A DNA stretch of 37,852 nt from a virus. Under the pieces are notes generated by a model, which saw nothing but the letters and a program-made list of their open reading frames with translations, ran no database searches and was not told the DNA's origin. The stretch is taken from positions 1 through 37,852 of IMG/VR virus record IMGVR_UViG_3300006919_000152; one strand, given 5' to 3'. This document shows positions 1 through 31,711 of this stretch, in pieces. The first letter of the stretch is position 1; each line of letters begins with the position of its first letter. The position numbers were made by a program, and so were the translations under genes.

Positions 1-1772
1 CTTCCTGCACCAGTAATACAATTAGCACTATATAAACAAGATAAAGAATCGTTAGTGTTAGCAACTGGTTCGTAGTTATACGCGTTTGGATCCATGCAAC
101 CCATAACCATTTCGATACACGAACCGTTATCCGTGTTAGCAAGTGAATCAAAGTTAAGAGCGTCACTATCCATACACCCATAAATATAAGCGATACAACT
201 AAAATCCTCCGTGTTCGCGATTGGGTTATAGTTAAGCATAGAAGGGTCCGTGCAACCATATATAAAAGGTATACAAGTATTATTGTCACTGTTTGCTAAT
301 GGGTTATAATTTAACATTGTAGAATCAGTACAACCATAAGTAAATGGTATGCAAGTTCCGTCATTTGTATTTGCTAAGCTATCGTAATTAAACATAGTTG
401 GATTTATACAACCATAAATATAAGCAATACAGGTTCCGTCATCAGTATTTGCTAGTGGTGCAAAGTTAAAAGCTAATGTATCTGTGCAACCTAATATAGC
501 TGCTTCACAAGAACCATCGTCTGTATTGGCATTAGGATTATAGTTAACCGCTATATCACTAGTACAACCATATACAACGGGTATGCAGTTTGTAGATGTG
601 TTTGCATTAGGATTGTAGTTGAAAGATCCTGGTATCATACATCCATATATTACATCTATGCAACCACCGTTGTTTATATTAGCTGTATTATCATAATTAA
701 AAGCTGTTGCATCAGTACAACCCCAAACAGCTTGAGTAACACAACTACCATCGTTATAATCAGCGGTAAAACCTTGAGTATAATATTCTAAATAACTAGA
801 GTTAGTACAACCAGGTAAATAGTAACAACTACCGTCATCTGTGTTCGCAGTGTCTACATAGTTAATAGCTAAAGGGTTCATACAGCCAAACACTTTTTCA
901 ATACATAAATCACCACAGAACGTAGGTGTTTTATATTTATACATAGGTTGTATAAAAGGCGGTAACACTTCTATCATTGTTTGTCCTAGTGGGTTTGTTA
1001 GTTTAAAACCACAGTGAGGTGTTGTTAACTGCGCTTGTGCTGTAACATAAAACTTAAACTCTACTAGCTGCGGAGCATTTAAGTTTATAGTAAAATCTTG
1101 AGTATAAGCAGCTGTATCTATATAAAACTGATATACATTTGTATCTTGTTTAACTTCTAAATATGAACCAACCCAACCATCACCAATTAAATCATATAAA
1201 GTTAAAATATAATCACAATTATTTATTAATGCCATTGTGTTAGCATTTGGATCATAGTTATACATAGTTGAATCAATACAACCAAAAACTCTTAAAGTAT
1301 TGCACGAACCGTCATCTGTATCAGCAAGTGGATTAAACTCTACATATGCCATATCCATGCAGCCCATGACGGGAGGACAAGCATCAGATACAAAAACATG
1401 TATTGAATCATTACCAAAAGCAGCATCTGTACCATATATCAAAGTATCGTTACACTGTATTAAATAGTAAGAACCATCTAAACCACCCCACAAAGCACCA
1501 TTTAAACCATCACCATAAGTATCATATATAGTAAAAACTAAAGGGCCTTCTGGCAAACACAACGGTTCCAATACAGAAGCGTAATCTGGTTGAGATCCAT
1601 AGTCATCACTATATGCAAGTACATTGTCACTAGTATCTTTTATAGTCCAATAAGTCTCACCTTGGTATTGATCTAAGTTTATAACTACAGTAGTTGGCAC
1701 ACAGTTAGGCGGCCCAGGTTGAGCGAATACCATAAAAGGCAATAACAATAATAATAATAAAATTCTAATCAT
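1..1772 (-). CDS. Secreted Cys-rich repeat protein (partial, runs off left edge)
   Basis: Open for 590 codons without a stop to the window edge, so the C-terminus is missing. It starts with a clear Sec signal peptide (poly-Leu core, ending FMVFAQ near residue 18). Next come a beta-rich segment with a DTYGDGLNG motif (residues 84-92), two Cys repeats, a second segment with DLIGDG (194-199), and then eleven more Cys repeats. Each repeat opens with GCxD or a variant, has NYxPxANT in the middle and closes with DGSC or a variant. From residue 351 the spacing is 25-26 residues. These motifs are familiar from secreted and surface proteins of Bacteroidota; adhesion or a calcium- or disulfide-stabilised stalk is inference. 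A GGAG sits just upstream of the ATG, unusual in this window, and the start overlaps the upstream stop as ATGA. It could be a tail-tip adhesin or a protein exported by the infected host. Confidence 0.85.
   Translation of the reverse strand, partial: MIRILLLLLLLPFMVFAQPGPPNCVPTTVVINLDQYQGETYWTIKDTSDNVLAYSDDYGSQPDYASVLEPLCLPEGPLVFTIYDTYGDGLNGALWGGLDGSYYLIQCNDTLIYGTDAAFGNDSIHVFVSDACPPVMGCMDMAYVEFNPLADTDDGSCNTLRVFGCIDSTMYNYDPNANTMALINNCDYILTLYDLIGDGWVGSYLEVKQDTNVYQFYIDTAAYTQDFTINLNAPQLVEFKFYVTAQAQLTTPHCGFKLTNPLGQTMIEVLPPFIQPMYKYKTPTFCGDLCIEKVFGCMNPLAINYVDTANTDDGSCYYLPGCTNSSYLEYYTQGFTADYNDGSCVTQAVWGCTDATAFNYDNTANINNGGCIDVIYGCMIPGSFNYNPNANTSTNCIPVVYGCTSDIAVNYNPNANTDDGSCEAAILGCTDTLAFNFAPLANTDDGTCIAYIYGCINPTMFNYDSLANTNDGTCIPFTYGCTDSTMLNYNPLANSDNNTCIPFIYGCTDPSMLNYNPIANTEDFSCIAYIYGCMDSDALNFDSLANTDNGSCIEMVMGCMDPNAYNYEPVANTNDSLSCLYSANCITGAG
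36..722 (-). repeat. Tandem coding repeat, about 78 bp period (9 units)
   Basis: Repeats 5 to 13 of the left-edge protein form a regular array: units begin at residues 351, 377, 402, 428, 454, 480, 506, 532 and 558, so the period is 26 residues (78 bp), with one 25-residue step. The DNA units are clearly diverged while the Cys, Asn-Tyr and Asp-Gly-Ser-Cys positions hold, which points to selection on the protein rather than recent DNA duplication. Four looser repeats lie upstream at residues 137, 164, 296 and 321. Confidence 0.85.
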
Positions 1773-2053
1773 TTTTCTCCACATTTTTTACTTGGATTAC
1801 CAACTTGTCTCCAATCTTGTTTAACCCATGTTTTTAAACTTCCACCACTACTAGTACCAGTTACGTTACTTTTAGAAGAACGTTTGTACTTACCAGCTTT
1901 ACCAGCTTTACGCTTAGCACGTATAACAGCTTGCCTTTCAGCTTTACTCATACTAGCAATTTTAGCTTTAGGCAGACATACCTTAGTGGTACCTCCGCCT
2001 TTAGCTTTTGTTGCTTTTACTTTCTTAAAAGGATTACCTTTTTGAACGTACAT
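1769..2053 (-). CDS. Small basic Cys-containing phage protein with YVQKGNPF tag
   Basis: 94 residues, very Lys/Arg rich. It opens with MYVQKGNPFKK, a tag shared with two neighbouring basic proteins. The middle has KVCLPKAKI followed by a Lys/Arg/Ala helix (SKAERQAVIRAKRKAGKAGKYKR). The C-terminal part has SLKTWVKQDWRQVG and ends KKCGEK. This combination (CLPxAKI, KYKRSSK, then a W-x-x-x-x-W segment and a terminal Cys) resembles the DUF5872-like small basic proteins I know from marine phages and large algal viruses; that family name is from memory. Role unknown: nucleic-acid binding or a virion-packaged protein is inference from charge and context. Its start overlaps the previous stop (TAATG) and its stop overlaps the next start (ATGA). 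Confidence 0.75.
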   Translation of the reverse strand: MYVQKGNPFKKVKATKAKGGGTTKVCLPKAKIASMSKAERQAVIRAKRKAGKAGKYKRSSKSNVTGTSSGGSLKTWVKQDWRQVGNPSKKCGEK

Positions 2054-2364: not shown

Positions 2365-2907
2365 TTAAATTTTATTTTTAATATAGTTATACATTTCGTT
2401 ACCTAGTTTTTCACCCATTTTACTATCTGACTTGTAGTGAGCGCGGGCAACGTTCCTACTATAAGATATGTTTTCACCTGTTTTTGCAAAAGCAGATTTA
2501 GCTTTAGGGTATTTATCACCTAATACTTTAGCTATTAATATACCTTGAACAGAGTGACCAGAAGGATACGAAGGTGTTTTCATAGACTCCATTTCGTAAT
2601 CTTTAATTTTTATATTCATTTTCTTAGCCAATACTTTTGGTCTTGGCCTGTTAAAATGTTTCTTTAACTTTAATATTACAGGTGCAGAAGTTTTTATAAG
2701 CTTTGAAGCAATTTTTTTATCGTAATCTTCTACATTATTATCTTTAGCTGTTTTAGCAAATGCAGCTTCTATATTGTCAAACTTTTTTACAAAATCTTTT
2801 TTTAAAGGTATTTTGGCCAAAGCTTTTAATTCTTGAGACGTATCAAAAGTGTTGTCACCTGGTGGCTTCATCTTTTTAAAACTTGATATGTCAAAATCTT
2901 TAAACAT
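2365..2907 (-). CDS. PAP2-family phosphatase (soluble)
   Basis: 180 residues carrying the whole three-part signature of the PAP2 / haloperoxidase superfamily: K80-x6-R87-P88 (within LKKHFNRP), P115-S-G-H118, and S150-R151-x5-H157-x3-D161. In this family the first Lys/Arg, the two His and the last Arg bind phosphate, and the second His is the nucleophile. Substrates range from phosphatidic acid and undecaprenyl pyrophosphate to soluble phospho-compounds. No membrane helices or signal peptide are seen, unlike the usual lipid phosphatases of the family, so a soluble acid-phosphatase-like or haloperoxidase-like form is more likely. Residues 1-75 are a charged helical region specific to this protein. 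The start overlaps the end of the upstream 92-residue gene by 8 bases. Neighbours are small basic phage proteins. Confidence 0.85.
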   Translation of the reverse strand: MFKDFDISSFKKMKPPGDNTFDTSQELKALAKIPLKKDFVKKFDNIEAAFAKTAKDNNVEDYDKKIASKLIKTSAPVILKLKKHFNRPRPKVLAKKMNIKIKDYEMESMKTPSYPSGHSVQGILIAKVLGDKYPKAKSAFAKTGENISYSRNVARAHYKSDSKMGEKLGNEMYNYIKNKI

Positions 2908-3432: not shown

Positions 3433-3837
3433 TTAACAGTTCCATCTACGTCTAGCAGCTTTACCTCTTTCACCGGTCCAACCTTTTGATCTAGCGCAAA
3501 ATGATTTTCTACGATTAGCCGCCTTGCTACCTTTTTTTAATTTAGAAGGATCAGTAGTAACAGCTGTTTGTAATTTACTACCTGGGTTTTTTCTTTTATA
3601 TTCTTTTACACCTTTTTCTGTCATACCACCACCAGCGGCACCACCAGTAGCACTTTTATCTTTTGATACAGGGTTAAAGTTTTTACCTCTACCTATTGTT
3701 CTTTTTGGTTCTGCTGCAAATAATGGTGACCCATCATTTCTACGCCTACCACAACTAGTAACAGCAAAAGGATTACCTTCTTGAACGTATCCTTTAGTTT
3801 TTTCAAACATACTATTTTGTCTCTTACTTCCTGGCAT
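3433..3837 (-). CDS. Basic phage protein, DUF6321-like C-terminus
   Basis: 134 residues, strongly basic. Residues 15-26 hold GYVQEGNPFAVT, the third copy of the YxQxxNPF tag, here not at the extreme N-terminus. The C-terminal part has the pattern GGMTEKGVKEYKRKNPGSKL, then Lys-rich sequence, RRKSFCARSKGW and a final RRRWNC. I recognise this as the small basic protein family called DUF6321 in phages (name from memory), function unknown. An internal Met at residue 10 is an alternative start that would put the tag close to the N-terminus, but the ATG at 3837 sits 2 bases after the upstream stop and is preferred. Confidence 0.75.
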   Translation of the reverse strand: MPGSKRQNSMFEKTKGYVQEGNPFAVTSCGRRRNDGSPLFAAEPKRTIGRGKNFNPVSKDKSATGGAAGGGMTEKGVKEYKRKNPGSKLQTAVTTDPSKLKKGSKAANRRKSFCARSKGWTGERGKAARRRWNC

Positions 3838-3839
3838 AA

Positions 3840-4163
3840 TTAAAAATCACTCATTAATAATTCATCTATTGCTTCCATTACTTCTTCTTTTGTTGCTAGC
3901 ATTTTAAATGATAAATCAGCTTGAAATCTCAACGCTTCTTCACCATCTTTAAATATTATAATAGTAGGTACAACCGCTATTTTATATTTCGTTGCTTCAT
4001 CTACATTTTTAGCTATATCAACAATACCTTTTGTTTTACAGTCTAAATCCATAAACCAAGATACACTATTAGCATCATTCCAACCAGCATTAAAATGCTT
4101 TGCCTCTATTTGTGCAAAAATAGCTTGGCTAAAAAACATTAATATAAATAATAGCTTTTTCAC
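3840..4163 (-). CDS. Exported thioredoxin-fold protein lacking CxxC
   Basis: 107 residues. Residues 1-17 are a Sec signal peptide (KKLLFILMFFSQAIFA, cleavage before Q18). The remainder reads as a thioredoxin fold: beta strand KHFNAGW, then helix, YKIAVVPTIIIFKDGEE with the cis-proline P66, and a last helix. The active-site WCGPC position is W28-N-D-A-N32, so both redox cysteines are gone; the only Cys (C42) lies elsewhere. Redox activity is therefore unlikely; a binding or chaperone role outside the inner membrane is inference. It starts with GTG in a GTGA overlap with the upstream stop. The signal peptide suggests it acts in the host periplasm during infection, not in the capsid. Confidence 0.7.
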   Translation of the reverse strand: MKKLLFILMFFSQAIFAQIEAKHFNAGWNDANSVSWFMDLDCKTKGIVDIAKNVDEATKYKIAVVPTIIIFKDGEEALRFQADLSFKMLATKEEVMEAIDELLMSDF

Positions 4164-5577: not shown

Positions 5578-8500
5578 TTAATCGTGGTAGTAACAATATT
5601 TGCTTTTGTTAGATGTTTGCATCTTACATCTTGTGCCGTCTGCTTTTCTTTTTCTGCATTGTACTTTTTTACCACCTTCTAACTTTTCAGTTTCTTCATG
5701 TATAGTACAAAAACCACCTTTAACAGCTTGGTTTTTACATCTTTTACCACTTGAGCTTACAGCTGCACACCTACCATCTTTTTTCTTTTTATTTTCTTCA
5801 ACTATAGATCTTTGTTTTTCTTTTTTTTCTTTTTTCTTTTCTTCTGCTTTTTGTACAGCTTGTTTTTTAGACTCTTGTTTCTTTTCTTCTTTTATCTCAC
5901 TTTTAACAGCTTCAATATCAGGATCTTTAATACCTAAATCCCAAGTATTCCAACCTAAAACTAAAGCTAGTCTTTGCCAAAGCTCGTTATTAGCATCTAA
6001 AGCATTATCTATGTTTAACATTTTATTAGATAATCTACCAAGTGGAATATTTGTAAAACCTTCTACAACATTACCAATACCAGACCAAATTGGATTATCT
6101 AAAGAAAAACCTCTTCTTTTAAATACATCTTTATTAAACTTTTCTGTTTGTATAGATGAATATATTTTACGTAGCTTAGACCCTATTGGTGGAGAAAAAC
6201 TAAGTAAAGATAATATTGTATACGTGTGATCAGCTCTAAAACCTTTATCTCTTTCTTTTAAGTAAGTCATTGCTGTATTTTTAACAGTACTTATAGCCTT
6301 ACCACCATAACCAATACCAGATAAAATAGAATCTAGCGCTCCATTGAGTATTCTTTCTTTCTTTTTATCATACTGTTCTTCGTCATCTTCACCTAACGCG
6401 GCAAACAAAGCCGATTGTAAAGCGCCAAATATTATACTTTGTACAACACCATAGTAAGCAATTTTAGATATATGTGTTTTGTAATCACCTCTACCATTTA
6501 CTAAGTCTCTAGATACTTTATTAATAATTCTAGCATACTGCATTGGTGTGTTTTGAAATGCTAATATTAATCTACCAAGTGGAGAAGCTTGTTGCTGTGA
6601 TATCATATCAGGTCTTGCTGACTGCTGAGCAACTTCTGATGTTTCTTGAAAATCTAAAAACGCTTTCTCTTCTGCTTGTTGTTGTGTTAACCCTTCTTTT
6701 ATATATTTTTTAACTCTGTTTCTATAAAACGTAGCGCCACCTGATGCGATAGCAAAACTATCAGCTATTTGCGTAGGTAAAAACCCTTTTTTAAGTAACC
6801 AAGCTATAGCTGCTTTAGCTTTGTTTTCTGCACCTGCTACAGCAGATGATAATTCAGCTTCGTTAATACCTCTTTGATTACCAGCACGTCTTTGTTTTAG
6901 AAAGTCAGAGTTAAATAAAAACGCAAAATCTTTCCAATACTGTGGTTGATTAGCAAATGCCGCCGCCGCCTTTAAAGGGTTATTATCAGACCAGTTGATA
7001 AAGTTTGTAGCAGATATAGTTTGAAGTAATGCGGATCTCATGTTAAAGAACATGATAGCGCCTACAGAATTGTTAACCCAGTTCATGTAAGTGTTCATTA
7101 ATCTACCGCTACCAGTTGGTCTATTTCTACCAGTTTCCATACGGTATAGTATATCTTGTAAAGCTTCTCTAAACTTACTACCGTATATAGCCTCTATTTT
7201 ATTTAAGTTTTGCGGTGAAAATATTACATCTTTATTTTGTTGCCACTCTGCTAAAAAATCAGCTCTTTTATCACCAATATTACTATCACTTAATAAATCA
7301 GAAGTTATAGTTTCTGCAAGCCAAAAATCACCAGGCGCAGAGTAACCAGCTTCTTCTTTAGATATAATACCAACACCTTCAGCAAAAGCTTTTAAGTCTG
7401 CATTTTCATTAACAACTTTTTTTAAGCTGTCTAAATCTCTTTTTGATAATCCTGGTATATTAAAACCAGCCTTGTCCCAAAGATAAACTCTAACCGCTTG
7501 ATCGTTTGTAAAGTTTAGCTCGCCAGCTTTTTTATTTATTGTTTTCTTTATTTGAGGATATTGCTTTTGTAAATTTTCATAATCATTAGCAGCGCTTTGT
7601 TTAGAAGCGTTTAAATCGTTTATTCCTCTAGCAAAAGGATCAATTAAAGCTTTTTTAAAGAAAGCCATATCAGCTTCACCTTTTTTACTTCTACCTAAAA
7701 AGTTATATAATAAACCAGCAAAATCTTGGGCTGAAGCAGGTATAATACTTTTATACTTTGTTCTTGCTCCTCTAATTTTGGCTTGAGCATCAGAAAACTC
7801 TTTCATAGATTCAACACCAGTTGATCCTTCTAGTATATCGTTAAACTCTCTGCTCATGCCTTTGCTAAATTTAATTTTAGCTTGTTGAACTTTCGACTTA
7901 ACATCAAACTGATCTAACATGTTTTTAACAGCTTGTACATTTTGTAAAGCATCATCAGCAAAATAAAAATCATTATATCCTTCACCAACTTTATCAGCAA
8001 CCCATAACGCTTTAGCTTCGCTAGTACTATTACCTAAGCCAGTTATATTTTTTAAAGGTATGTTTAAACCATTAGCTTTTAAAAAGTCAAATATAGCTTT
8101 TTGAGCTTGTGGTGGCCTTGCTGTTAGCACAAACATATTTTCAGGGCCAAACTTCTTTTGTAACTTTATTGCTTTATTAAATAATGGTGCTAACTTACCT
8201 TTAACAACTTTGTTAAAATCAGAAAAGTCAAACGTATAACCTTGATCTTGTAAGTCTTCATATGTACTAGCAAATTGTTCAGCGTTTAACGTACCAGTTG
8301 TACCATCTGGTGCTGTATATTTAACTAGTGATTTAGTTGTGGCTAATGTATCATCAAAATCTAATATACTAATACCTTTTGAATCTTTTGAGTAATTAGT
8401 TGTTCTAGCACTAAACATAGCCTTGCTAAGGGTTTTGTTGGCTTCTGTTTGTGTTTTTATACCGCTTGGCTTACCATCAATACTTATATTTAGCTCTTGA

Positions 8501-11500
8501 GCTAAACTTTGACCAGAAACAATTGAAGTAAATTTTTCAGGATTAATACCTCCTTGAGCTAGTACTTTTTCATTAAAATATCTTTCCCACCAATTATTAT
8601 CAAATATATTCCAATCTTCTGGCATTGATTGTTTATATCCAGCGGCTGATAGCTTATTGCTATCTTTTTTAGACATAACTATTAACTTGTAATTATTTTG
8701 AAGCGTTTCTAAAGTTTTTGTAAACTCTGCCTTGCTTTGGCTTATAGCAGCGTCCATTAATAATCTATAAGCCTGGTTATTTGGTAAAGCGTGCTCAAAC
8801 TCTAATGTGCCAGTTGCGGTTCTATCAATATGAGTTAGTTCAGAACCAATCCTCTGTGGGTGAGTACCTTCGTTTGTAGAACCTTTAAGCCAATGCAACA
8901 AAGGTGTTACAACCGATTTGTCTTTTTGAACACCATCGTATATAGCTAACCACATAGATTTAAAATTCTTTACATTTCTATCGCTTAATCTTTGTAGCTC
9001 TTTATTTGTGCTGTTGTCTATTAATTTTTTATCAAATTTTGTTCTAGCATAATCTTTGTTTGTTTTAAAAGAAATACCTTTTTGTCCCATGTAACCAGCT
9101 AACATGGACTTTGCATCTTTTACTAACCTATTAGGCATTATAGAAGTAGTAATAGCAACTGTAGTATTTAAAAAACCAGGCATAGAATCAAATATAGGTA
9201 TTACTTTATCAACAAGATCAACAACATAGGTTTCAGCACCAGCTTGGTCTAACGTGTCATAATATAATATACCGGCTTTTTTAGCTATAGCTTCATTTTC
9301 TTTACTAAACATAAAAGTGCTTTTACCATCTTCTAACGCTCTAAATGTTTCGATTTGCACTTGTTGTCTAACAGCTTGGTTGGTTATCATTTTACCTAAA
9401 GTATTAGCTAATGATAAAACTCTAGCAGAAGTGTTTCTATCTGTACGATTAGGCTTGCCATCTACAATACCAAATACTTCTAAAAATTGTTTTTTATTTA
9501 TATTGTTTTTTTGTTGTATAGGTAAACCTGCTTTAGTTCCAGTTTTAGCCATTTTAGCTCTTTCGCCTTTTGTGTAGAACTCATTTAGTAAAGTTTTAGG
9601 AACACCAGTTGCCATACCACCCTCTGTCGATCCTTCAGGCAGCATTTTAATTAATAAATCAGCATTTTTATTAATAAACATTTGTGATTTTTGTAACTCA
9701 CTTTTAGTTATATTAGCGTTAGTTATTAATTTTTTTGGTGCTATACCAAATAATTTACCTACAATACTAGGAACTTTATTTTTTAAATTTTTAAATGTTA
9801 ATTTATCAATATCTAAATCAGGTAATATTTTAGCAACAGTAGCGTCTACTTCTTTAGCAATATTTAATCTATCAGCTAAAACTATTTTCTTTGGCTTTGG
9901 TTTTGCCTTTGTTTCAGTAGTAACTTCTTCCGCGGCTATATCTACTTTTTCTGTAACATCTTCTGTAAACTCTTCGCCTAATACTCTTTTTGATGCTTCA
10001 ATGGCTCTTGATGGTAAAAACTTGTTTATATAAGCAGCTAATGGTACTCCAGACTCTGGTTTATATTCTCTAATTAAATCAAATATACCACGTTGTCCAG
10101 TTTCTATTTCGTCAGTTAATAATTGTCTATCAAAGTTTGGTGCTTCACTACGTCTTTCTACTATTTTACTAGTAATAGGTTTAAACGCGTTTATAATATC
10201 CATAGCACCAGCTACACCTTGATCTTCATATATACGTTGAACATTGTCAGAAGCATCTTTAGACATTTGAACAGTGTCCTCTGGTATAACTTTACCCTCA
10301 ACTAATTTACCTTTAGCACCTTCTTTTGCTACTCGTAGTATAGCTTTATTTATTTTACCGCCTTTAATGCTTTTACTATAATCTTTTACAAAATTATAAA
10401 CATCTCTACCGGTATCAAACGTAATTTCTTTACCTAAATAGTTTTGGCTAAACCTTCTAATTACATCACCAATTTTAGTAAAAAAGTTTTCGTTAAATTT
10501 CAAATTGCCGTTTATAATTTCTTCAGACATTATAGTAACAGTTTCTTCACCAAAGTTAGAGTCTCTTTCAAACATGCCATCTTTGTTAAATTTACCATAA
10601 GCTTTAAGTCTTTCACCTAACACACTTGTTTCTCCACCTAAATCACTAACATGATCAACTAAAGCATCGCCTAAATTATCTTGTAATTTTTGTTGGTTAC
10701 CTAAGGTTTTAAATAATACAGCATGCATAAACTCATGAGCCGCCGTGCCAACCATTGGCTTATCTTTATTAAGTGTTATTGTAAAACTACCATCTGTTCT
10801 TTGGTTTATAAAACCAAATTGTTTAGCAGCTTGTTTAGAATTAAATCCTTCTTCTTTAATATTAGATATTTCTTCAGAAGTCATTTCAACTACTTCACCT
10901 TCTAATCCAGCTTCTTTTATTTGTTCTTTTACTGTCTCTGTAACTTTCTCAGCAGCTTTAGCTTTGGCACTTTCTAATATAGAAATATTTTGCTCTTGTA
11001 ATGTTTTATATTTATCTTGAGCAATATTTTTCTCACTACTTGTCTTAGCTTTTACTAAAACGCTTTTCGCCTTGTTAATTTCTTCAATATTTTTAGAATA
11101 ATTAACTAAGTCTTCTCCTTGTAAATTATTAATTAACGAAGATGATTGTCTTTTAATACCAATAATTTCATTTTCTATTTCATTAATTTTTTCATTAACT
11201 ATTTCTTTACCTTCTTCAGATACGTTAGGTAAATCGTCTATTAAATCATTTAACTCTTGCGCTTTTTTAGATATTTGGTTTTTAGCGTTTTCTGGCATTA
11301 ATATAGCTTCTGCTCTATCTTTTGCTTTGTCGCTTTGTTTTGTAACTTCACCTACAGATGAAACAGCACCACCAACTAATGAACCAACAATAAAACCATC
11401 ACCCATAGAATATAATAATTCTTTTTGATCATATTCTTTGCCTAATATAACATAATCTGCCAACGTTTTAGATACTAACTCTGTAGCAGACTCTGAGGCA

Positions 11501-12300
11501 CCTTCACCAACAATACCAAACCCTATGTTTTTTACTAAATTAGCAGCCCCTCCTTTTATTAACTCTCTAGCTGCCGTAACATTTCCTTGAGAATTTAAAA
11601 ACCCTGCTCTTTTTAAAAGGCCTCTAGTTGCTAATTCAAAAGTTGCTTCTGTAATACCTGAAACTCCTGATGCTGCTAAAATTTTACCTGTTGATTTTTC
11701 TGGGTCTTCTTCAAATTCTTCTTCAAATTTATTACCAGCTACGCTAGTACCTAAAGCTATTAAACCACCGGCTCCAGTAGCAGCAGCAACTAATGATGGC
11801 GCAGATCTTAACGCTGCGTTAACAGCTCTAAAACCAGCTTGCGAATAATTTCCTTGTTCTATATCTTCGGTAATACTTTGTGTTTCGTATTCTGGTATGT
11901 TTTCTTCTAACTTTTCTATTATAGGATCGTAGCTTTCAGAATTACCAAGAACATTTGTCTTTCTAATAGCTTGTAGTGCCGCTGTTTTTTCAGTAGCAGA
12001 CATTTCACCTGGCATGATTAATTCAGTAACTCCCAACTGAATTCCTTCTTTTATATTTTCAAAACCTTTACCAAACTCTACAAAACCAAGACCTAGGTTA
12101 GACATTAACGTAGAAAAAGCACTTGGTTCTTCATCTGTCTCTTGTTGAGAAGTAAGTGTTTGTTCTACTGGTGGAACAACTTCTTCTTGAGCTTGCTCTT
12201 GTGTTGATATAACAGCACCAGGATTACTAGCTAAAAATATTTGTTCGTATGTAGGATCTACGTCTATTAAAGTTCCATCTGTTAGCCTATATCTAATCAT
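5578..12300 (-). CDS. Giant virion polyvalent/ejected protein: zincin, HAD, zinc knuckles
   Basis: 2240 residues. Visible parts in order: an N-terminal segment; a Gly/Ala-rich hydrophobic region (about 150-320) that could insert in membranes; long charged helices (320-470); a zincin motif TAAHEFMHAVL with H522-E-F-M-H526; a Lys/Ala/Glu-rich linker near 780-810; a complete HAD-like domain (D1314-F-D1316-D-T1318, T1393 in VLTARPP, K1430, D1449-D1450); a helical region I recall from other marine phage internal proteins (about 1480-1580); a long helical C-terminal region with LAFQNTPMQYARI resembling large polyvalent-protein associated domains; and two zinc-knuckle-like motifs (C2178, C2188, C2198, H2201; C2215, C2225, C2236, H2239). 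Proteins of this style are packaged and ejected with DNA. No lytic transglycosylase motif was found. Start overlaps the upstream stop (TAATG). Confidence 0.75.
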   Translation of the reverse strand: MIRYRLTDGTLIDVDPTYEQIFLASNPGAVISTQEQAQEEVVPPVEQTLTSQQETDEEPSAFSTLMSNLGLGFVEFGKGFENIKEGIQLGVTELIMPGEMSATEKTAALQAIRKTNVLGNSESYDPIIEKLEENIPEYETQSITEDIEQGNYSQAGFRAVNAALRSAPSLVAAATGAGGLIALGTSVAGNKFEEEFEEDPEKSTGKILAASGVSGITEATFELATRGLLKRAGFLNSQGNVTAARELIKGGAANLVKNIGFGIVGEGASESATELVSKTLADYVILGKEYDQKELLYSMGDGFIVGSLVGGAVSSVGEVTKQSDKAKDRAEAILMPENAKNQISKKAQELNDLIDDLPNVSEEGKEIVNEKINEIENEIIGIKRQSSSLINNLQGEDLVNYSKNIEEINKAKSVLVKAKTSSEKNIAQDKYKTLQEQNISILESAKAKAAEKVTETVKEQIKEAGLEGEVVEMTSEEISNIKEEGFNSKQAAKQFGFINQRTDGSFTITLNKDKPMVGTAAHEFMHAVLFKTLGNQQKLQDNLGDALVDHVSDLGGETSVLGERLKAYGKFNKDGMFERDSNFGEETVTIMSEEIINGNLKFNENFFTKIGDVIRRFSQNYLGKEITFDTGRDVYNFVKDYSKSIKGGKINKAILRVAKEGAKGKLVEGKVIPEDTVQMSKDASDNVQRIYEDQGVAGAMDIINAFKPITSKIVERRSEAPNFDRQLLTDEIETGQRGIFDLIREYKPESGVPLAAYINKFLPSRAIEASKRVLGEEFTEDVTEKVDIAAEEVTTETKAKPKPKKIVLADRLNIAKEVDATVAKILPDLDIDKLTFKNLKNKVPSIVGKLFGIAPKKLITNANITKSELQKSQMFINKNADLLIKMLPEGSTEGGMATGVPKTLLNEFYTKGERAKMAKTGTKAGLPIQQKNNINKKQFLEVFGIVDGKPNRTDRNTSARVLSLANTLGKMITNQAVRQQVQIETFRALEDGKSTFMFSKENEAIAKKAGILYYDTLDQAGAETYVVDLVDKVIPIFDSMPGFLNTTVAITTSIMPNRLVKDAKSMLAGYMGQKGISFKTNKDYARTKFDKKLIDNSTNKELQRLSDRNVKNFKSMWLAIYDGVQKDKSVVTPLLHWLKGSTNEGTHPQRIGSELTHIDRTATGTLEFEHALPNNQAYRLLMDAAISQSKAEFTKTLETLQNNYKLIVMSKKDSNKLSAAGYKQSMPEDWNIFDNNWWERYFNEKVLAQGGINPEKFTSIVSGQSLAQELNISIDGKPSGIKTQTEANKTLSKAMFSARTTNYSKDSKGISILDFDDTLATTKSLVKYTAPDGTTGTLNAEQFASTYEDLQDQGYTFDFSDFNKVVKGKLAPLFNKAIKLQKKFGPENMFVLTARPPQAQKAIFDFLKANGLNIPLKNITGLGNSTSEAKALWVADKVGEGYNDFYFADDALQNVQAVKNMLDQFDVKSKVQQAKIKFSKGMSREFNDILEGSTGVESMKEFSDAQAKIRGARTKYKSIIPASAQDFAGLLYNFLGRSKKGEADMAFFKKALIDPFARGINDLNASKQSAANDYENLQKQYPQIKKTINKKAGELNFTNDQAVRVYLWDKAGFNIPGLSKRDLDSLKKVVNENADLKAFAEGVGIISKEEAGYSAPGDFWLAETITSDLLSDSNIGDKRADFLAEWQQNKDVIFSPQNLNKIEAIYGSKFREALQDILYRMETGRNRPTGSGRLMNTYMNWVNNSVGAIMFFNMRSALLQTISATNFINWSDNNPLKAAAAFANQPQYWKDFAFLFNSDFLKQRRAGNQRGINEAELSSAVAGAENKAKAAIAWLLKKGFLPTQIADSFAIASGGATFYRNRVKKYIKEGLTQQQAEEKAFLDFQETSEVAQQSARPDMISQQQASPLGRLILAFQNTPMQYARIINKVSRDLVNGRGDYKTHISKIAYYGVVQSIIFGALQSALFAALGEDDEEQYDKKKERILNGALDSILSGIGYGGKAISTVKNTAMTYLKERDKGFRADHTYTILSLLSFSPPIGSKLRKIYSSIQTEKFNKDVFKRRGFSLDNPIWSGIGNVVEGFTNIPLGRLSNKMLNIDNALDANNELWQRLALVLGWNTWDLGIKDPDIEAVKSEIKEEKKQESKKQAVQKAEEKKKEKKEKQRSIVEENKKKKDGRCAAVSSSGKRCKNQAVKGGFCTIHEETEKLEGGKKVQCRKRKADGTRCKMQTSNKSKYCYYHD

Positions 12301-13592
12301 TATTTTGCTTTATAATTTGGATCATTAATATAACTTACTAATGTATCAAAAGGTCTTTCTCCTTTTTTAATAGCTTCTATTGTGCTTTCTTCAAATGAAA
12401 ATTTATCAAGATTAGCTAAGATGTATTTAGTTACACTTTCTTTTGTAGGTGCAAATGCAGTTACTTCTTCTTCACTATCATCACTTTCTACATCTCCATC
12501 ATCTGTAAAATCACCTTGTTTTTCTTTTTTTGTTTTTGTTTTAACAACAAGCTTTTTTTCTTCTGGCTCAGGCTCTGGTAAGTATTTTTCAAACTCATTA
12601 TTAATCATAGATTCATAACTATTTAAAAACAACTGATTATCTATTTCACCTTCTTGTTTGAACTTGTTTAACTCTGCATCGTATAAATTACTATTTTTAT
12701 AATCTTCAAAACTTTTTATACCAGTTACACTTTCAAACTCTGCAGCGTCTTCTGGAGTGCTTACATGTTGTTGGTAATACTTTTCCATATAAACATCTAA
12801 AAGATTTTTAAAATCTGGATTGTTCTTCTTTTGAAATAATAAATTTTTAACAGCGTCAGGATCTTTTTCTACAAGTGTTTTAATATCACTCATAAGGTTT
12901 ACGCTCATAGGTTTAAAGTTATCAGGATTTTTTTGATATTTTAATGTTGCAGCCATTTGTCTTACTTCCTTATAAGTGTCATCAATAGTTTTTTCTAAAG
13001 TATCATTATAAGCAGATCCAGTATTAAACTTAGATATTGGAACAAAATTACCTACAGTATGATCAAACCATTCATACTCGTTAGTTTCTTCATTAAAACG
13101 TTGTTCCTGTGTGTTGTTTTGTATTGCTTCGTAGTTTGTCTTTTGTTCAAAAGTAGCAGCTTCTGATATTCCCCTGTTTCTTAAATTTGCAGTTAGCTGT
13201 GCCTTTGTTTCCAAGTGGTCACTATGATTTTTTATTTCAAGATCAAGTTCATCCATTTTATTTCTAGCACTTTCAACATCTTCTTTAGTTGCTTTTCTTG
13301 TTTCGCCATCTACTACAACATTTTTACCTTCTGTAACTCTTCCTAACTCTTTTATTCTATCAGCACATTGCATAATATATTGCGTAGAATTTTCCCTTTC
13401 ATTTCTACCTATTTTTTCAATTGGAAGACCATATGGATTTTCTTCTTTTTTCTGTTTGTTATAAGTTCCAATTTTATCTAACTCTTGCTTAAGCTTTTCA
13501 GTGTAATCAACGTACTGCATATCTTTCACTAATCTAGACATGCCTAAGCTATAACCAGCTCTTTCAAATAATCCTTTATCAATTTTTGCCAT
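12300..13592 (-). CDS. Internal virion protein (helical), putative
   Basis: 430 residues, largely charged helices, no signal or membrane segment. The N-terminus (AKIDKGLFERAGYSLGMSRLVKDM) is followed by long coiled-coil-like stretches. Near residues 345-375 there is an acidic/Lys low-complexity hinge (EPEPEEKKLVVKTKTKK, then a run of Asp/Glu), then a compact C-terminal domain. It lies directly between the 279-residue glycine-rich protein and the giant ejected protein, coupled to the latter by TAATG. In podoviruses the corresponding position holds internal core / ejection proteins, and that is the basis for the call. No sequence motif proves it. Confidence 0.5.
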   Translation of the reverse strand: MAKIDKGLFERAGYSLGMSRLVKDMQYVDYTEKLKQELDKIGTYNKQKKEENPYGLPIEKIGRNERENSTQYIMQCADRIKELGRVTEGKNVVVDGETRKATKEDVESARNKMDELDLEIKNHSDHLETKAQLTANLRNRGISEAATFEQKTNYEAIQNNTQEQRFNEETNEYEWFDHTVGNFVPISKFNTGSAYNDTLEKTIDDTYKEVRQMAATLKYQKNPDNFKPMSVNLMSDIKTLVEKDPDAVKNLLFQKKNNPDFKNLLDVYMEKYYQQHVSTPEDAAEFESVTGIKSFEDYKNSNLYDAELNKFKQEGEIDNQLFLNSYESMINNEFEKYLPEPEPEEKKLVVKTKTKKEKQGDFTDDGDVESDDSEEEVTAFAPTKESVTKYILANLDKFSFEESTIEAIKKGERPFDTLVSYINDPNYKAK

Positions 13593-13604: not shown

Positions 13605-14444
13605 TTACTTTCCTAAATTTGGATCACCAGGGAAAAGCGATTTAAAATTATAACCTTTAGTACCAGCACCTTTTACGTTTTGCATAAAAGTTGCAGCTTT
13701 GTCACCTAATAAACCACCTGTTGCTGCGCTAGCAAGACCAGACCCAACACCACCAATTATACCTTGTATACCTTGTTGCTTTTGTGCTTCAGCTGCTGCT
13801 ACAGCTTGATTAGCCGCTGATAATTCACCAGAGGCCATACCCATCATTGCTTGTGTTTTATCGTATTCTAAACCTCTAGCTGATTCGGCACCTCTTAATC
13901 TTTGCATCTCAGCGTCACTAGCGCCTTTTGCTTTCATTTGTTCTCTAGATAAAACATCTTGTGCTCCTTGTGCCATCAATCTTTGATTAGCCGCTTCTTG
14001 TTGACCTATAGATGCAGATGCTTGTTGCGTGGCTAATTGACCTTGGCTTGCCATTTGTTGTGCTAATGCTGCCACACCAGATCCACCTGCTGCACCACGA
14101 AGGTTTTCCATAATATTAGCTCTCTGTTGTGCGCCTTGCTGAGCTTGAAACTGTGCTTGTTGTTGGTTTACAGTTAAATCTTCGTAAACATTTTCCATGC
14201 TAATATTTTCATAAGGATTTTGTACATCAGCATATATATTACTAGTGTCTAAAGCTTCAAATTCTTGTTTTCGCTTGTTTAACTCTTGTTGTGCTCTTCT
14301 TTGTTGAGCTTCTGCAGCGCCTAAAGCAGAGTTACCACCTATAAGATTTGTAACACCGCCAACAATACCAGTCACAGCACCTAAAAACTTATTAGGGCTT
14401 CTTTTAAGAAATGTTCCAGGACCTACTATTCTACCTTTTGCCAT
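13605..14444 (-). CDS. Internal virion protein, T7 gp14-like in character
   Basis: 279 residues, rich in Ala, Gln and Gly. A short basic N-terminus is followed by a hydrophobic Gly-rich segment (FLGAVTGIVGGVTNLIGG, about 20-38), a long Gln/Ala coiled coil (about 40-225), and a second Gly-rich hydrophobic segment (GIIGGVGSGLASAATGGLLG, about 228-248). Two amphipathic Gly-rich segments flanking a Gln/Ala coiled coil are typical of the smallest internal/ejection protein of T7-like phages, which inserts in the host envelope to form the DNA channel. The assignment rests on composition and on its position upstream of two larger candidate ejection proteins. Confidence 0.55.
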   Translation of the reverse strand: MAKGRIVGPGTFLKRSPNKFLGAVTGIVGGVTNLIGGNSALGAAEAQQRRAQQELNKRKQEFEALDTSNIYADVQNPYENISMENVYEDLTVNQQQAQFQAQQGAQQRANIMENLRGAAGGSGVAALAQQMASQGQLATQQASASIGQQEAANQRLMAQGAQDVLSREQMKAKGASDAEMQRLRGAESARGLEYDKTQAMMGMASGELSAANQAVAAAEAQKQQGIQGIIGGVGSGLASAATGGLLGDKAATFMQNVKGAGTKGYNFKSLFPGDPNLGK

Positions 14445-16367: not shown

Positions 16368-16745
16368 TTATTTACTATTTATTGTTACTTCACTACCAAC
16401 TGAAAAAAGCTCAGCTTTTGTTTTAGAATTATTTTTAAAAGTTGCTTCTGCATAATACCCGTTTACATCACCATCCATTTGGTTATATTTAGAAAACATT
16501 AAAAAATCGTCTTTGCTAGGAACATAAGGATTTACAAACAAAGAGTCATCTACATCTAAGATTGTATCATTATCTTCTTTTGTAATTCGCCTTAATATAC
16601 CAACTAGCTTATTAATACCTGTGTTTTGGTTTTCAAAATCAGTAACTCCACTTACTTGCTGAGTTGTAGATGTTGCGTAAATCATATCACCAACTTGAAG
16701 TGAAGTATTTAAATTTTTAATATTACTTATAAGTATTGATATCAT
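16368..16745 (-). CDS. Small structural-region protein, unknown
   Basis: 125 residues, no signal peptide or membrane helix. It opens with ISILISNIKNLNTSLQVGDMIYATS, where the LQVGDMIYA segment resembles the start of the small beta-barrel modules in neighbouring structural proteins. It then has an acidic middle (EDNDTILDVDDS) and a beta-rich end (YYAEATFKNNSKTKAELFSVGSEV). Its ATG overlaps the stop of the 2233-residue gene (ATGA), and its stop is one base from the fibre-like gene, so it is probably a minor tail component or accessory of these two. Function not recognised. Confidence 0.6.
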   Translation of the reverse strand: MISILISNIKNLNTSLQVGDMIYATSTTQQVSGVTDFENQNTGINKLVGILRRITKEDNDTILDVDDSLFVNPYVPSKDDFLMFSKYNQMDGDVNGYYAEATFKNNSKTKAELFSVGSEVTINSK

Positions 16746-19700
16746 CTTCTAGTTCTATAATTAATTTTTCTTTGTTGTTCTTTCAACCTTAATAGCTCTA
16801 ACTCTTCTTCACTCGCGGACTCTACACGACTATCTTCTTCGATGCTTCTTGATTGTATAGCCTCTTCTAAAGCTTTTTCCTCAGCTTGTTTTGCTTCAAC
16901 TCCTGATTCGTCTCTATTTAAACGTGTTTCATCTACAACGGTATCATCAATAATATCTGTTGAAGTTTCAGTTACAATAGGTTTGTCTGTTTTAATATCT
17001 ATTGTTATTTCTGTTGAAATATCTGTATTAACATCTGTTGTATTATTTGTTACTGGCTCAAAAGATGGTGTTTCCGGCGGTAAATCTAATACTATAGGGT
17101 TTGCTTTTTCAATTTCAACATCACTAACTTGAGCTATACCTTGAAAAGTAAAATCAGAAGTATCTGCTTTATCTAAGTTTATATTTATATCTCTATTTAT
17201 ATTATTAAACCATTTACCTTCTTTTTCTAAAAACTCGCTAATATAACCAGTTTCTTTATCTGTAACAATATCACCAACATACCAGCCAAGTTTATCTGAT
17301 AAGTTGTAATACTCTTGATCATTATATTCAGTGTCCGGTTGAAAATCTAACTGTTTAGTTTCAACTGAAAATTTATCTACTTTAGATTGACTACCTTCAT
17401 AATTTAAAGTGTTAAAAGCTTTTATAACACCAGGATTATCGTTAAGTACAACGCTAATAGAAGATTCTGTAAATTGATTATAAAAAGTATTTCTATCTGC
17501 ATTGTCAACATGATGTATAAATAAATTACCTTGGTTAAAAGTGTAATAATCATTAGCCATGCTAATAGCATTTTCTGGTGTAAACGATTTAAAACTAACC
17601 CATCCTTTTATATTTTCTTTATATGTAATAGTTGTATTTATACCGTTTCCTTTTAAAGTTAAATTATATTGATCTTTTTTATCATCGTAACTACCTATAG
17701 CTATATCAGTTATCTTTAAATTATCTCTAAACCAATCGTTCATACCAGCATCTGATATAGGCGTTAAACCATCCATTGATAATCTTAAAACTTTACCTCT
17801 AACTTTATCTGTAAAATAAGCTCTATAATTTTCTGAAGCAAAAGATTCAGGATTTGTTGATATACCAAACTCACCTGAAAAAGGTATTGTTTGCCCTAAA
17901 ACATTTTCTGTTGCTGTTAAGTTGGTATTACCATCTGCATTAAATACAGCATCTTTATTTGCTAATATTTTTAAAACTTTATCTTCGCATAACGTTACTA
18001 AATCAGAGTTTCGTGAGTGTAATTTCTGTATACTTCCATATATAGGATTTACATCTTTAGTTATTTTTTCCGCTGCAATAAACTGATTTAAATTATTAAC
18101 ACCAGACACTGAATTATATATACCAGAATATATTAAACCGTATTTTCTGTGCTCTTCTTCATAATCATGTTCTAATGTTGTAGATACTTTAACTCCATTT
18201 GTTATAAACGGTAAATTAAAATTATCTCTAATTCTATTAGATTCAACACCATTACCAAAAGAAAAACAATTATGCCAAGTTAATCTATGGTTTCCATTGT
18301 ACAAACCAGGATCAATTGCAACAGTATTACCGTTTGTGAATATACTAGTAATAGCAACATTAAGTTCTAAACCATCAGGTCTTACAAAATGATAAAATGG
18401 ACCACCACCTGGATATGTACCTGTTGTTACAAAACTTGCTCCTAAAGCACCAACATTTTCAAGCGTTACAGCTGCTACTCCATTTACCTGGCCATAACCA
18501 ACAACTTTAGAATTTTCATCATAGCCATTAATAAAAGATCCAATAGGAAAAGCATCTTGTATATTTGCTGTGTTAAGACTAATAGGTATAGCGCTAGTAG
18601 CCTCATAATATACGTCTAACTCTTTTATTTCTTTAGGCTCTGTTTCAAATATAGCTGGGTTTTCAGATAATATTTCTTCTGGCTCTATGTATTCAATAAA
18701 CTCTAAGTTATATCCAACAGCTGTAACAGCACCAATATCTCTACCGTTCAAATGACCCATTGTGTTAATGTTAAACTCAGAATTATCGCTATAACCATTC
18801 ATACCAACTTGCACAAATGTAATATTTTCACCGTTTTTAGGCTTATTATTACCAATAGCAAGTTGATGTTCTTGCTGAGTTTTTAACGCTGTTTTATAAC
18901 CACCAAGATACAAAGCATAGTGTGTTGTAGTTCCGCTAACAGGAAGAGGTTCTATATATCTTATTGCTAAAAACTCATTAGAAACTCCAGTACCACCTAA
19001 ATCTGTTACTGCTTGAGTAGCTGATACTGTGTTTGTATAACTACTAAACGCCATACCAACTTTAAGTGTATTACCAGCGCTATCTATTAAATTATTTACA
19101 AATATTTTTAAATCACTAGAAACATTACTACCTGACGCGGTATCAGTACCAGTTGAACCATTTTCATCACAAAGCGCAAGAGTTACATTAGCCCCGGTAG
19201 AATTAGGTATTACACCATCAGTAAATGGATTCCAATTACCACTGTAACTTGGAGATATATTTGATAACACCCAGTTGCTACTAAAATTAAAAGATAAAGC
19301 TTCAGCCATAGACATACCTACAGAACCTTCAATATATGTATTATCTGCAGTTCCACTTAAAACTACTCCAGTTTCGGCATCGCTAGTTATAATACCACGA
19401 GAATCTTTATCCTTACTTCCCTGATTACTTCTATCACGACCAGTTTTAACAGTGCTATGTCTAAAAACTTTTTTATTTGAATTAGTACCACCAATTGTAT
19501 ACACTGTTTCTGTAGGATCTTCTTTCCACCTAAAACTAACACCAACATTAAGATTTTGAATAAAATTAAACTCACTTTCGTGATAATCGTTTGTAGTATT
19601 ATTTAAACCAGGCTGCCAGCCAAAGTTAAAAAACCCAGTGGTATCGTTATCTTGGTTAGCACCCATTATACCACCAAAAGCAATATCCATTTTATGTACT

Positions 19701-29290: not shown

Positions 29291-31711
29291 TTAACGAGGA
29301 TCAAACCTACCTAAACCAAAGTCACCACCTAGTATATCATTACCTGAAGACTCAAAGTTTTTAGGTGGTTTTTTATTTAATCTTTGATCTATTAGCTCAC
29401 TTTGTTGAGAAGCTTGCATCCTAGTTCTTTCATCTTTACGATCTTCTTTTATCGTTTCTTTCATGTCTACTTGCTTCATGTTCATTTGCTGAAGCTGTTG
29501 GTTGATCTGGAACTCATATTGCATTAACCTCATTTTATGCTCAACTTCTAGTTCCATTTGTTGAGATTTTAAGCTAGACTTAACTTGCTCTAGCTGTGCG
29601 TTGGTCTGCGCTATTGCTTGATTTTTTTGAACTTCAGCTTGAGCAGCAACCTGTTGCGCTTGAGCATTAGCTTGTGCTTGAGCTTGTATATTTTGCTGTT
29701 GCATTTGCTGATCTCTTTGTAGTTTCTTTTTTCTTCTAATCTTCAATACTTGATTAGCTAATTTTACGTTTCTTATTTCTCTAACATCAATAGCATCTTC
29801 AAGATCTATAGTTTTTTGCTGTAGTGCCATTTGAATATTGTTTTCTAATACAGCTTTTTCTTCTTCATCTGGTTGTAACTCTAAAAATATACCAAAATCA
29901 TAAAGATGTAAATCAGACATTTCTTCAAGAGTTGCTAAATTATGACCACCTATTGCTTGTAAAAAAGCATCTTTAGTTGGCGAGTACTCAAGTATATCAG
30001 ATATTCTAAGCGATAAACACTCTGCGGTTTCAGTTGTTAAAAACAAACCAGCTTGAAGTATATGTCTTGTTGCAGTATTGCTGTTTGCCGCTGCAAGTTT
30101 TTGAATACCAACTAAAGCGTTTTTGTCTGGAGTACTACCGTCTCTAGCTTCGTTTAACCCGGTTACATCTCTTATCATTTGTAAGTAGTAGTTATAATTA
30201 CCTATAAGAGCTTGCATTTTATTGCCACCACTACCTGATGTTATTTCTTGTATAGGAACTTTGCCAGGATTCATTTCACCTTCACTAGTAAAAGATCTAC
30301 CTATAACACTACCAGTTTGAAAAAACATATTTAGTGCTTCTTGCGGATTATAATTTGTACCATTACCTAAATCAACTTCAGCTAAACCATCAGCGTCTAA
30401 ATAAACACCATCTGGTACCATTCGCGACATTACTTGTTGTAATTTTAAATGAGTTAACTGTATCATGTCAGCAAAACCAGTTATACGTTTTACTAAAGAA
30501 TCTATTTTACCATTGTACATTCTAGGTGCCACAATGCTGTAGTTCATTTTAACTTTAGTATAGTCACTTTTAGGTCGCATCATATTTGACGCCATTTCCC
30601 ATTTAAGTAGTTTGTCGGTACCAAGTATCATGGCGCCATCATAAAGTACTTCTATAGATCTTTGAAGTTTAGAGTAGTTAAACTCAACATCAGTAGGCGG
30701 ATTAAAAGAGTCATCTTTAGGTATTATTTTCATAGCACCACTACCTGTTTCTTTAACTTTATAAACTTCATTCATGTAGGTTTTATAATTAAAATATAAA
30801 ACTTGAATAGTGTTATTGTCTTCTTTTTCTATTGAATATCTTGAGTTATAACTGTTTCTATTATAACTTTTGTTTTTCATTATTTCTTCTAAATCAGACT
30901 CTGTTAAATGAGGAAATTGTTTAGCTAATTCGTTTACAGGTATAGTTTTAACTTCACCAACATAATATATATCATCGAAAAAAGGTGAATCACTATAAGA
31001 ATAAACTAAGTTCGCTGGGTCTACATAGTCAATAGTAACACCTTCTGAAGTATTAAACCCTGTTTTAACAGCACCTATACCTAAAACAGCTAAGTCGTAA
31101 TAAAACCTTTTTTTAATTAACTCGTATTTATTCCCTTCTAATAAAGTGTTTATTGCTTGTTCTTCTGCTATTTCAACCGCTTGCTTGTACGTAAGCTGCA
31201 TGTGTAATTGTAACTCTTCTTCTGAGTCTGGTAAAGTTTCTGGATCGTTATCTGCTATTTGAATACCAAAAGCTTGTTCTGTATATGCGTTTAATTCTTT
31301 AGTACGCATATCAGCTAATATAGACTCCATGTATTCAGTTCTTTTGCTAACACCGTAGGGGTCTTGAGAAAAAGCTTTTATATTGTACAGGCGCTCCGTC
31401 ATACCGTTAACAACAATATCTACAAACTTAGAAATAATTGGTACTGGCTTCCAATCTAAATTTAAATAGGACAAGTCACCGTTTATAGATAATTCATCCT
31501 TATATTTTTGTATAGATTGTTCGCCTCTAGCGTATAATCTTAAACTGTGAAAATTATTATAGTTAGATTTATACCTATTGTTATTTCTATCGTTATTAAA
31601 CCACTCTTGCTCTATTGCTTTACCTACTTTCAAACCGTATTCGTAACTTATTTTTTCAGCGTCACTTACTGTTTGACTAGGAAAATAACTTTTAATGCCA
31701 GAATATGCCAT
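29291..31711 (-). CDS. Portal protein
   Basis: 806 residues. The N-terminal half has NNFHSLRLYARGEQSIQKYKD, SYLNLDWKPVPIISKFVDIVV and ERLYNIKAFSQDP, a pattern I associate with portal proteins of crAss-like and related Bacteroidota podoviruses. The clip/stem region includes SVIGRSFTSEGEMNPGKVPIQ and MIRDVTGLNEARDGSTP. The last 140 residues (about 666-806) are a Gln/Ala coiled coil, a long C-terminal barrel-like extension as in podovirus portals, ending in a Gly/Asp/Phe tail. It begins one base after the terminase stop and is followed by the scaffold-like gene. Portals form the dodecameric ring through which DNA is packaged and released. Confidence 0.85.
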   Translation of the reverse strand: MAYSGIKSYFPSQTVSDAEKISYEYGLKVGKAIEQEWFNNDRNNNRYKSNYNNFHSLRLYARGEQSIQKYKDELSINGDLSYLNLDWKPVPIISKFVDIVVNGMTERLYNIKAFSQDPYGVSKRTEYMESILADMRTKELNAYTEQAFGIQIADNDPETLPDSEEELQLHMQLTYKQAVEIAEEQAINTLLEGNKYELIKKRFYYDLAVLGIGAVKTGFNTSEGVTIDYVDPANLVYSYSDSPFFDDIYYVGEVKTIPVNELAKQFPHLTESDLEEIMKNKSYNRNSYNSRYSIEKEDNNTIQVLYFNYKTYMNEVYKVKETGSGAMKIIPKDDSFNPPTDVEFNYSKLQRSIEVLYDGAMILGTDKLLKWEMASNMMRPKSDYTKVKMNYSIVAPRMYNGKIDSLVKRITGFADMIQLTHLKLQQVMSRMVPDGVYLDADGLAEVDLGNGTNYNPQEALNMFFQTGSVIGRSFTSEGEMNPGKVPIQEITSGSGGNKMQALIGNYNYYLQMIRDVTGLNEARDGSTPDKNALVGIQKLAAANSNTATRHILQAGLFLTTETAECLSLRISDILEYSPTKDAFLQAIGGHNLATLEEMSDLHLYDFGIFLELQPDEEEKAVLENNIQMALQQKTIDLEDAIDVREIRNVKLANQVLKIRRKKKLQRDQQMQQQNIQAQAQANAQAQQVAAQAEVQKNQAIAQTNAQLEQVKSSLKSQQMELEVEHKMRLMQYEFQINQQLQQMNMKQVDMKETIKEDRKDERTRMQASQQSELIDQRLNKKPPKNFESSGNDILGGDFGLGRFDPR

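Follow-up and report, generated by a model that had tools for sequence, protein, structure and literature searches.

A giant polyvalent phage protein that joins zincin and HAD phosphatase domains with a sigma-70 region-2-like segment

Polyvalent proteins of bacteriophages are very large chains in which unrelated enzyme domains are combined around a zincin hub, and for which delivery into the cell and self-processing have been proposed (Iyer et al. 2017, PMC5512222). The virion RNA polymerases of N4-type and crAss-type phages are likewise giant virion-delivered proteins, and they start transcription at infection. How phages without a virion RNA polymerase take over early transcription is a standing question, and the phages of Bacteroidota are poorly understood. 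Here, we describe a giant gene in a 37.9-kb virus record from IMG/VR (IMGVR_UViG_3300006919_000152; termed the window, i.e., the whole stretch of DNA that was analyzed). The 2240-residue reading frame at 5578-12300, called in an original prediction made from the sequence alone, is real and runs from ATG to stop on the minus strand. Its product resembles the polyvalent proteins in size, in its unrelated domains, in its zincin and in the delivery and self-processing that we propose for it: a zincin metallopeptidase, a HAD phosphatase and a segment resembling region 2 of sigma-70 factors (sigma2) are several unrelated domains in one phage chain. Unlike the zincin, HAD phosphatase and sigma-like domains go unmentioned in the main text of the survey of these proteins (PMC5512222). 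Polyvalent proteins as such are already known, and these two modules are additions to their parts list. In contrast to the N4- and crAss-type proteins, the giant protein has no recognized polymerase domain (neither Pfam nor PHROG matched an RNA polymerase catalytic domain in it), and its sigma2-like segment would need the host polymerase.

We read the giant protein as a polyvalent virion protein, most likely delivered with the DNA, in which the zincin processes the chain and the sigma2-like part engages host RNA polymerase, and we assign this reading a probability of roughly 55%. The protein would be packaged in the virion and delivered with the DNA, its hydrophobic modules would help passage through the envelope, and the zincin would cut the polypeptide, itself first, freeing parts of it. 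The sigma2-like part would dock on host RNA polymerase and bias it toward the early genes of the phage or against those of the host, and the HAD domain would remove phosphate from a small molecule or a protein. Delivery and processing have published precedent in polyvalent proteins (PMC5512222), while the transcription step is inferred here. Taken on their own, self-processing by the zincin is evenly balanced, and engagement of host RNA polymerase is a tentative proposal. The features that carry this reading are as follows.

5578..12300, minus strand: giant gene for a 2240-aa polyvalent virion-type protein, an ATG-to-stop reading frame with relatives found by direct search and by HAD-domain search.
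10231..10893, minus strand: zincin metallopeptidase domain, residues 470-690, from the invariant H..H and E and an AlphaFold2 (AF2) model.
10723..10737, minus strand: HEFMH zinc-binding motif, residues 522-526, from motif and conservation.
10543..10545, minus strand: third zinc ligand E586, Glu in 81/82 relatives.
9973..10233, minus strand: segment resembling sigma-70 region 2, residues ~690-776, in which the aromatics at 746 and 757 are conserved, from profile and fold searches.
7846..8388, minus strand: HAD phosphatase domain, residues 1305-1485, from motifs, conservation, a sub-threshold DUF2608 match and Foldseek.

The original prediction listed the enzymes and the tail correctly but overlooked the sigma2-like segment that follows the zincin. 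The most conserved block between zincin and HAD opens with 'PITSKIVERR...DEIETGQRGIFDLIREYKPESGVPLAAYINKFLPSRAI', and its core aligns without gaps to sigma-70 region 2. The segment was found in at least 88 of 101 full-length relatives, behind the zincin at a median distance of 23 aa. Comparisons are given here from the weakest to the strongest. When the whole conserved block was searched against the PDB, sigma factors made up three of the four matches at E ≤ 1. Alignment to a sigma2 profile with hhalign gave E-values of 1.4e-3 and 5.7e-4, which were equaled by 1/150 and 0/150 shuffles, respectively. Foldseek searches of the sigma2-like part against the PDB gave sigma factors the top three ranks and 22 of the 44 matches, and viral sigma factors were among the matches in BFVD. 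A diverse profile, built from 40 very diverse relatives with a mean column identity of 18%, aligned to the sigma2 profile at E 1.7e-5 (0/400 shuffles as good) and to separate kinds of sigma factors at 1.5e-4 (cellular), 5.9e-4 (gp55-like) and 2.2e-4 (dominated by extracytoplasmic function (ECF) factors). Finally, an unguided search of this diverse profile against all PDB sequences returned FliA first (E 0.005), with sigma factors of many kinds accounting for 16 of the 26 listed sequences. In the part matching the promoter-opening helix, position 746 is Y or F in 39/40 sequences and position 757 is aromatic in 38/40. Narrower methods gave less: a small, narrow sigma2 profile reached P 0.19, though in the exact register, a narrow profile of close relatives had sigma factors as two of ten weak matches, and an ECF-dominated hidden Markov model gave no match to single sequences. 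Because sequence-by-sequence methods are too weak here, support rests on the diverse profile and the fold searches, from which we consider a sigma2-like fold of residues ~690-776 likely. The segment agrees with sigma-70 region 2 in motif and register, in predicted fold and in several profile comparisons, but it lies below detection by PF04542 and the window protein does not keep the tryptophan pair of the -10 region. Because the segment fails to match PF04542, we describe it as sigma2-like rather than classing it as a sigma factor.

The predicted HEFMH at residues 522-526 is the sole HExxH of the chain, with ~0.004 expected by chance from composition. Its residues are nearly constant over the relatives (H522 82/82, E523 80/82, H526 82/82, E586 81/82), residue 523 being Asp (HDxxH) in 2/82 rows. 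The AF2 model of residues 470-1290 (predicted local distance difference test (pLDDT) score of 83) has the HExxH within one helix and the Glu ligand within a later core helix, which matches the arrangement described for polyvalent zincins (PMC5512222). Of the 101 full-length relatives, 80 matched a zincin profile; the remaining 21 carry, upstream of their HAD, exactly one H[ED]xxH each. Neither Pfam nor PDB gave a match of weight to a named peptidase family, and the domain is assignable at superfamily level only, by motif and predicted fold. Conserved ligands and model thus bear out the zincin fold proposed earlier, and the giant protein almost certainly carries an intact zincin (HExxH...E). 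For zincins in polyvalent proteins the published reading stresses autoproteolytic processing, names effector zincins as an alternative and also suggests processing inside the head (PMC5512222); cleavage of a host protein by this zincin is possible.

The HAD residues D1314, D1316, T1318, T1393, K1430, D1449 and D1450 lie exactly where they had been placed, so that motifs I (DxDxT), II (T), III (K) and IV (DD) are all present. D1314, D1316 and T1318 are kept in 66/66 rows with residues there and T1393, K1430, D1449 and D1450 in 67/67. Foldseek with the AF2 model of residues 1290-2140 (pLDDT 72) matched PSPH with a probability of 1.00, yet with an E-value of only 0.03 for the 851-residue query; PSPH, EYA2, BT2542, Ceg4 and the other matches are generic HAD phosphatases. 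The Pfam family DUF2608, which we take to be HAD-related, matched the domain below threshold in 22/22 members. With motif conservation, Foldseek and the Rossmann-like HAD fold of the model in agreement, a HAD phosphatase fold is practically certain. The domain has the four motifs and the fold of PSPH, EYA2 and BT2542 but no family-level assignment beyond the sub-threshold DUF2608. In five relatives (L017, L059, L066, L158 and L163) ~200 additional residues, possibly a cap or an inserted domain, interrupt the HAD after motif I, and in L059, L117 and L076 430-460 residues lie between the HAD and the C-terminal module.

Gene position supports virion membership, and so does homology to the giant virion proteins that cultured flavophages encode, of which one has been detected by tandem mass spectrometry (MS/MS). 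The giant gene sits at the downstream end of the structural genes. Cellulophaga phi18:3 gp123 holds the same slot and, according to the database record's own notes, is MS/MS-detected, as are several of its neighbors. In a six-sequence set, blastp of the N-terminal module matched Panino 0069 at E 3e-12 and phi18:3 gp123 at E 7e-7 (residues 165-469). The C-terminal module is related to Gundel gp074 (E 1.3e-5) and the zincin to elemoC gp20 (E 4e-6), and the Gundel and elemoC giants were also among the fold-search matches. We therefore regard the giant protein as very likely a virion protein and its delivery into the cell, which the protein type suggests, as probable. The flavophage giants (phi18:3 gp123, phi38:1 gp101, Gundel gp074, Elemovirus gp20 and Panino 0069) share the slot in the structural operon, and the window protein has the hydrophobic N-terminal module in common with this group's giant virion proteins. 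In none of them, however, could a HAD of this type be detected, nor does any show a clear sigma2-like segment; their own middles carry other domains (DUF3293, GNAT-like).

Several points weigh against the proposed delivery, processing and engagement of RNA polymerase. Pfam PF04542 (sigma-70 region 2) gave no match to the segment at E ≤ 10, and the best single fold match of the sigma2-like part had an E-value of 0.93, with none significant. Because the sigma motif was first spotted by eye, the pairwise hhalign values carry an uncorrected selection bias, from which the PDB and fold searches of the sigma2-like part are free. The N-terminal links to the flavophage giants are small-set E-values in sequence of biased composition, and the MS/MS-detected protein occupies the same slot of a distant phage and differs through most of its middle. 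Ejection, processing and substrate use are predicted roles. A sigma region 4 was found neither in the whole-block searches nor in a single-sequence search of residues 790-1010, with no dedicated region-4 comparison made. With region 2, the main core-binding part, as the only recognizable one, the segment could instead shut off host transcription by filling the sigma site on RNA polymerase but not guiding the enzyme to phage promoters; we think this unlikely, as the aromatics of the promoter-opening helix are largely kept.

Remaining parts of the chain bear on the reading of the original prediction, in which the protein is a host-takeover machine.

11311..11916, minus strand: N-terminal Gly/Ala-rich hydrophobic module, residues 129-330, from blastp to flavophage giants, with hydrophobic peaks at 170-188 and 295-313.
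5926..7848, minus strand: conserved helical C-terminal module, residues 1485-2125, directly after the HAD and related to Gundel gp074.
6391..6447, minus strand: strongest hydrophobic segment, residues 1952-1970, from hydrophobicity.
5584..5769, minus strand: two DUF5763-like zinc-knuckle motifs, residues 2178-2239, accessory, from spacing pattern and sub-threshold Pfam match.

A hydrophobic Gly/Ala segment exists as predicted, but it is mainly N-terminal (residues 150-330, 29% G+A), and residues 1740-2050 reach only 19% G+A overall. The two C-terminal motifs were confirmed as C-x9-C-x9-C-x2-H (2178-2201) and C-x9-C-x10-C-x2-H (2215-2239), and all six Cys of the 2240-aa protein lie in these knuckles. 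The first of them matches Pfam DUF5763 (PF19067) with 22.2 bits (E 1e-4), under the cut-off of 26.3. Among the 101 relatives, 29 carry one or two DUF5763-like knuckles behind the C-terminal module, and the pattern is never seen farther upstream in the chain. Because the tail is absent from the other 72, it cannot be central; it is a real but optional accessory. In the host-takeover machine, the zincin would cut a host protein, the HAD would dephosphorylate nucleotides or nucleic-acid ends and the zinc tail would bind nucleic acid. Both enzyme domains are real and effector zincins are a published alternative (PMC5512222), but the tail is so often missing, the sigma2-like segment is left out of account and the HAD matches, being generic, do not fix a substrate: no polynucleotide phosphatase was among the listed PDB fold matches, action on nucleic-acid ends is unsupported, and the TARPP label, for which the literature searched gave no support, was dropped. 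We judge this machine improbable. Equally improbable is a role in assembly, as an internal head or ejection-conduit protein whose zincin processes head proteins and that does not act as an effector in the cell, which would suit a gene that shares its structural module with those for portal and tail and the suggested processing inside the head (PMC5512222) but would leave the strongly conserved HAD and sigma2-like segment without an obvious assembly function.

If the proposed delivery and docking on host RNA polymerase are true, very common marine phages of Flavobacteria-type hosts inject a protein that grips the host transcription machine as infection starts. The conserved zincin/sigma2-like/HAD protein is a concrete, testable candidate for early transcription takeover. 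A more specific version, in which a virion-carried sigma-like factor would be freed by the neighboring zincin and redirect host RNA polymerase before any phage gene is expressed, replacing a virion RNA polymerase, is doubtful; a literature search of incomplete coverage found no paper on virion-carried sigma factors.

Direct search found 29 relatives, and a HAD-domain profile found at least 556 IMG/VR loci and no match at E ≤ 0.01 in 50,697 annotated phage records. Cellular genomes gave 12 loci with the HAD domain, all in metagenome-assembled genomes (MAGs), several from unrelated phyla; these relatives (L172-L183) come from MAG contigs labeled Maricaulis, Woesearchaeota, Ilumatobacteraceae, Aliivibrio and others, and are probably phage contigs mis-binned with cells. 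The 101 full-length relatives range from 2068 to 3450 aa and vary in N-terminal length and in the modules in between, while the same helical module of ~660 aa comes directly after the HAD in nearly all. Along the window protein, column conservation peaks at 680-1000, 1305-1480 and 1480-2120. For the zincin and the C-terminal module, neither PHROGs nor Pfam returned anything usable; profiles of the HAD, the zincin and the C-terminal module had no meaningful matches among PDB sequences, and the block at 790-1010 matched no known family and had no useful PDB match in a single-sequence search.

9271..9933, minus strand: block of high column conservation downstream of the sigma2-like segment, residues 790-1010.
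8431..9270, minus strand: variable module, residues 1011-1290, from column conservation.
29291..31711, minus strand: portal protein (context), phrog_6547 at E 4e-152, with relatives in 87 phage records.
16742..23443, minus strand: tail protein of 2233 aa with a crassvirus muzzle C-terminal domain (context), PF25729 at E 7e-9.

By its portal relatives and its muzzle-domain protein, the phage is a podovirus of Flavobacteriia and kin to Pachyviridae, Pervagoviridae and Elemovirus. The relatives that place it are MW202828, Maribacter Panino, Elemovirus, Cellulophaga phi38:1 and phi18:3, and Tenacibaculum Gundel; the muzzle-domain protein has homologs in five cultured or named ones (Elemovirus, phi38:1, Gundel, Panino and MW202828). 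Cellulophaga phi14:2 was ruled out as a close relative, as it belongs to Crassvirales, the true relatives being Pachyviridae, Pervagoviridae and Elemovirus. The crassvirus muzzle C-terminal domain at 16742-23443 thus occurs in a phage whose relatives fall outside Crassvirales.

Immediately upstream of the giant gene, a 430-aa gene (12300-13592, minus strand) looks like a recent replacement or insertion, because it has homologs in 3/170 loci versus 136/170 for the next gene upstream (13605-14444, 279 aa). The region downstream of the giant gene holds a DUF6321 reading frame (3433-3837), a thioredoxin-like one (3840-4163) and a second type of phosphatase, of the PAP2 superfamily (2365-2907, minus strand; PF01569, E 2e-7). 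At the window end, a partial reading frame (3-1784, minus strand) is open and encodes at least 594 aa; its start resembles a signal peptide, and it holds many 'GCTDPxxxNYNPxANTDDGSC' cysteine repeats, of a kind known from secreted Bacteroidota proteins and odd for a phage.

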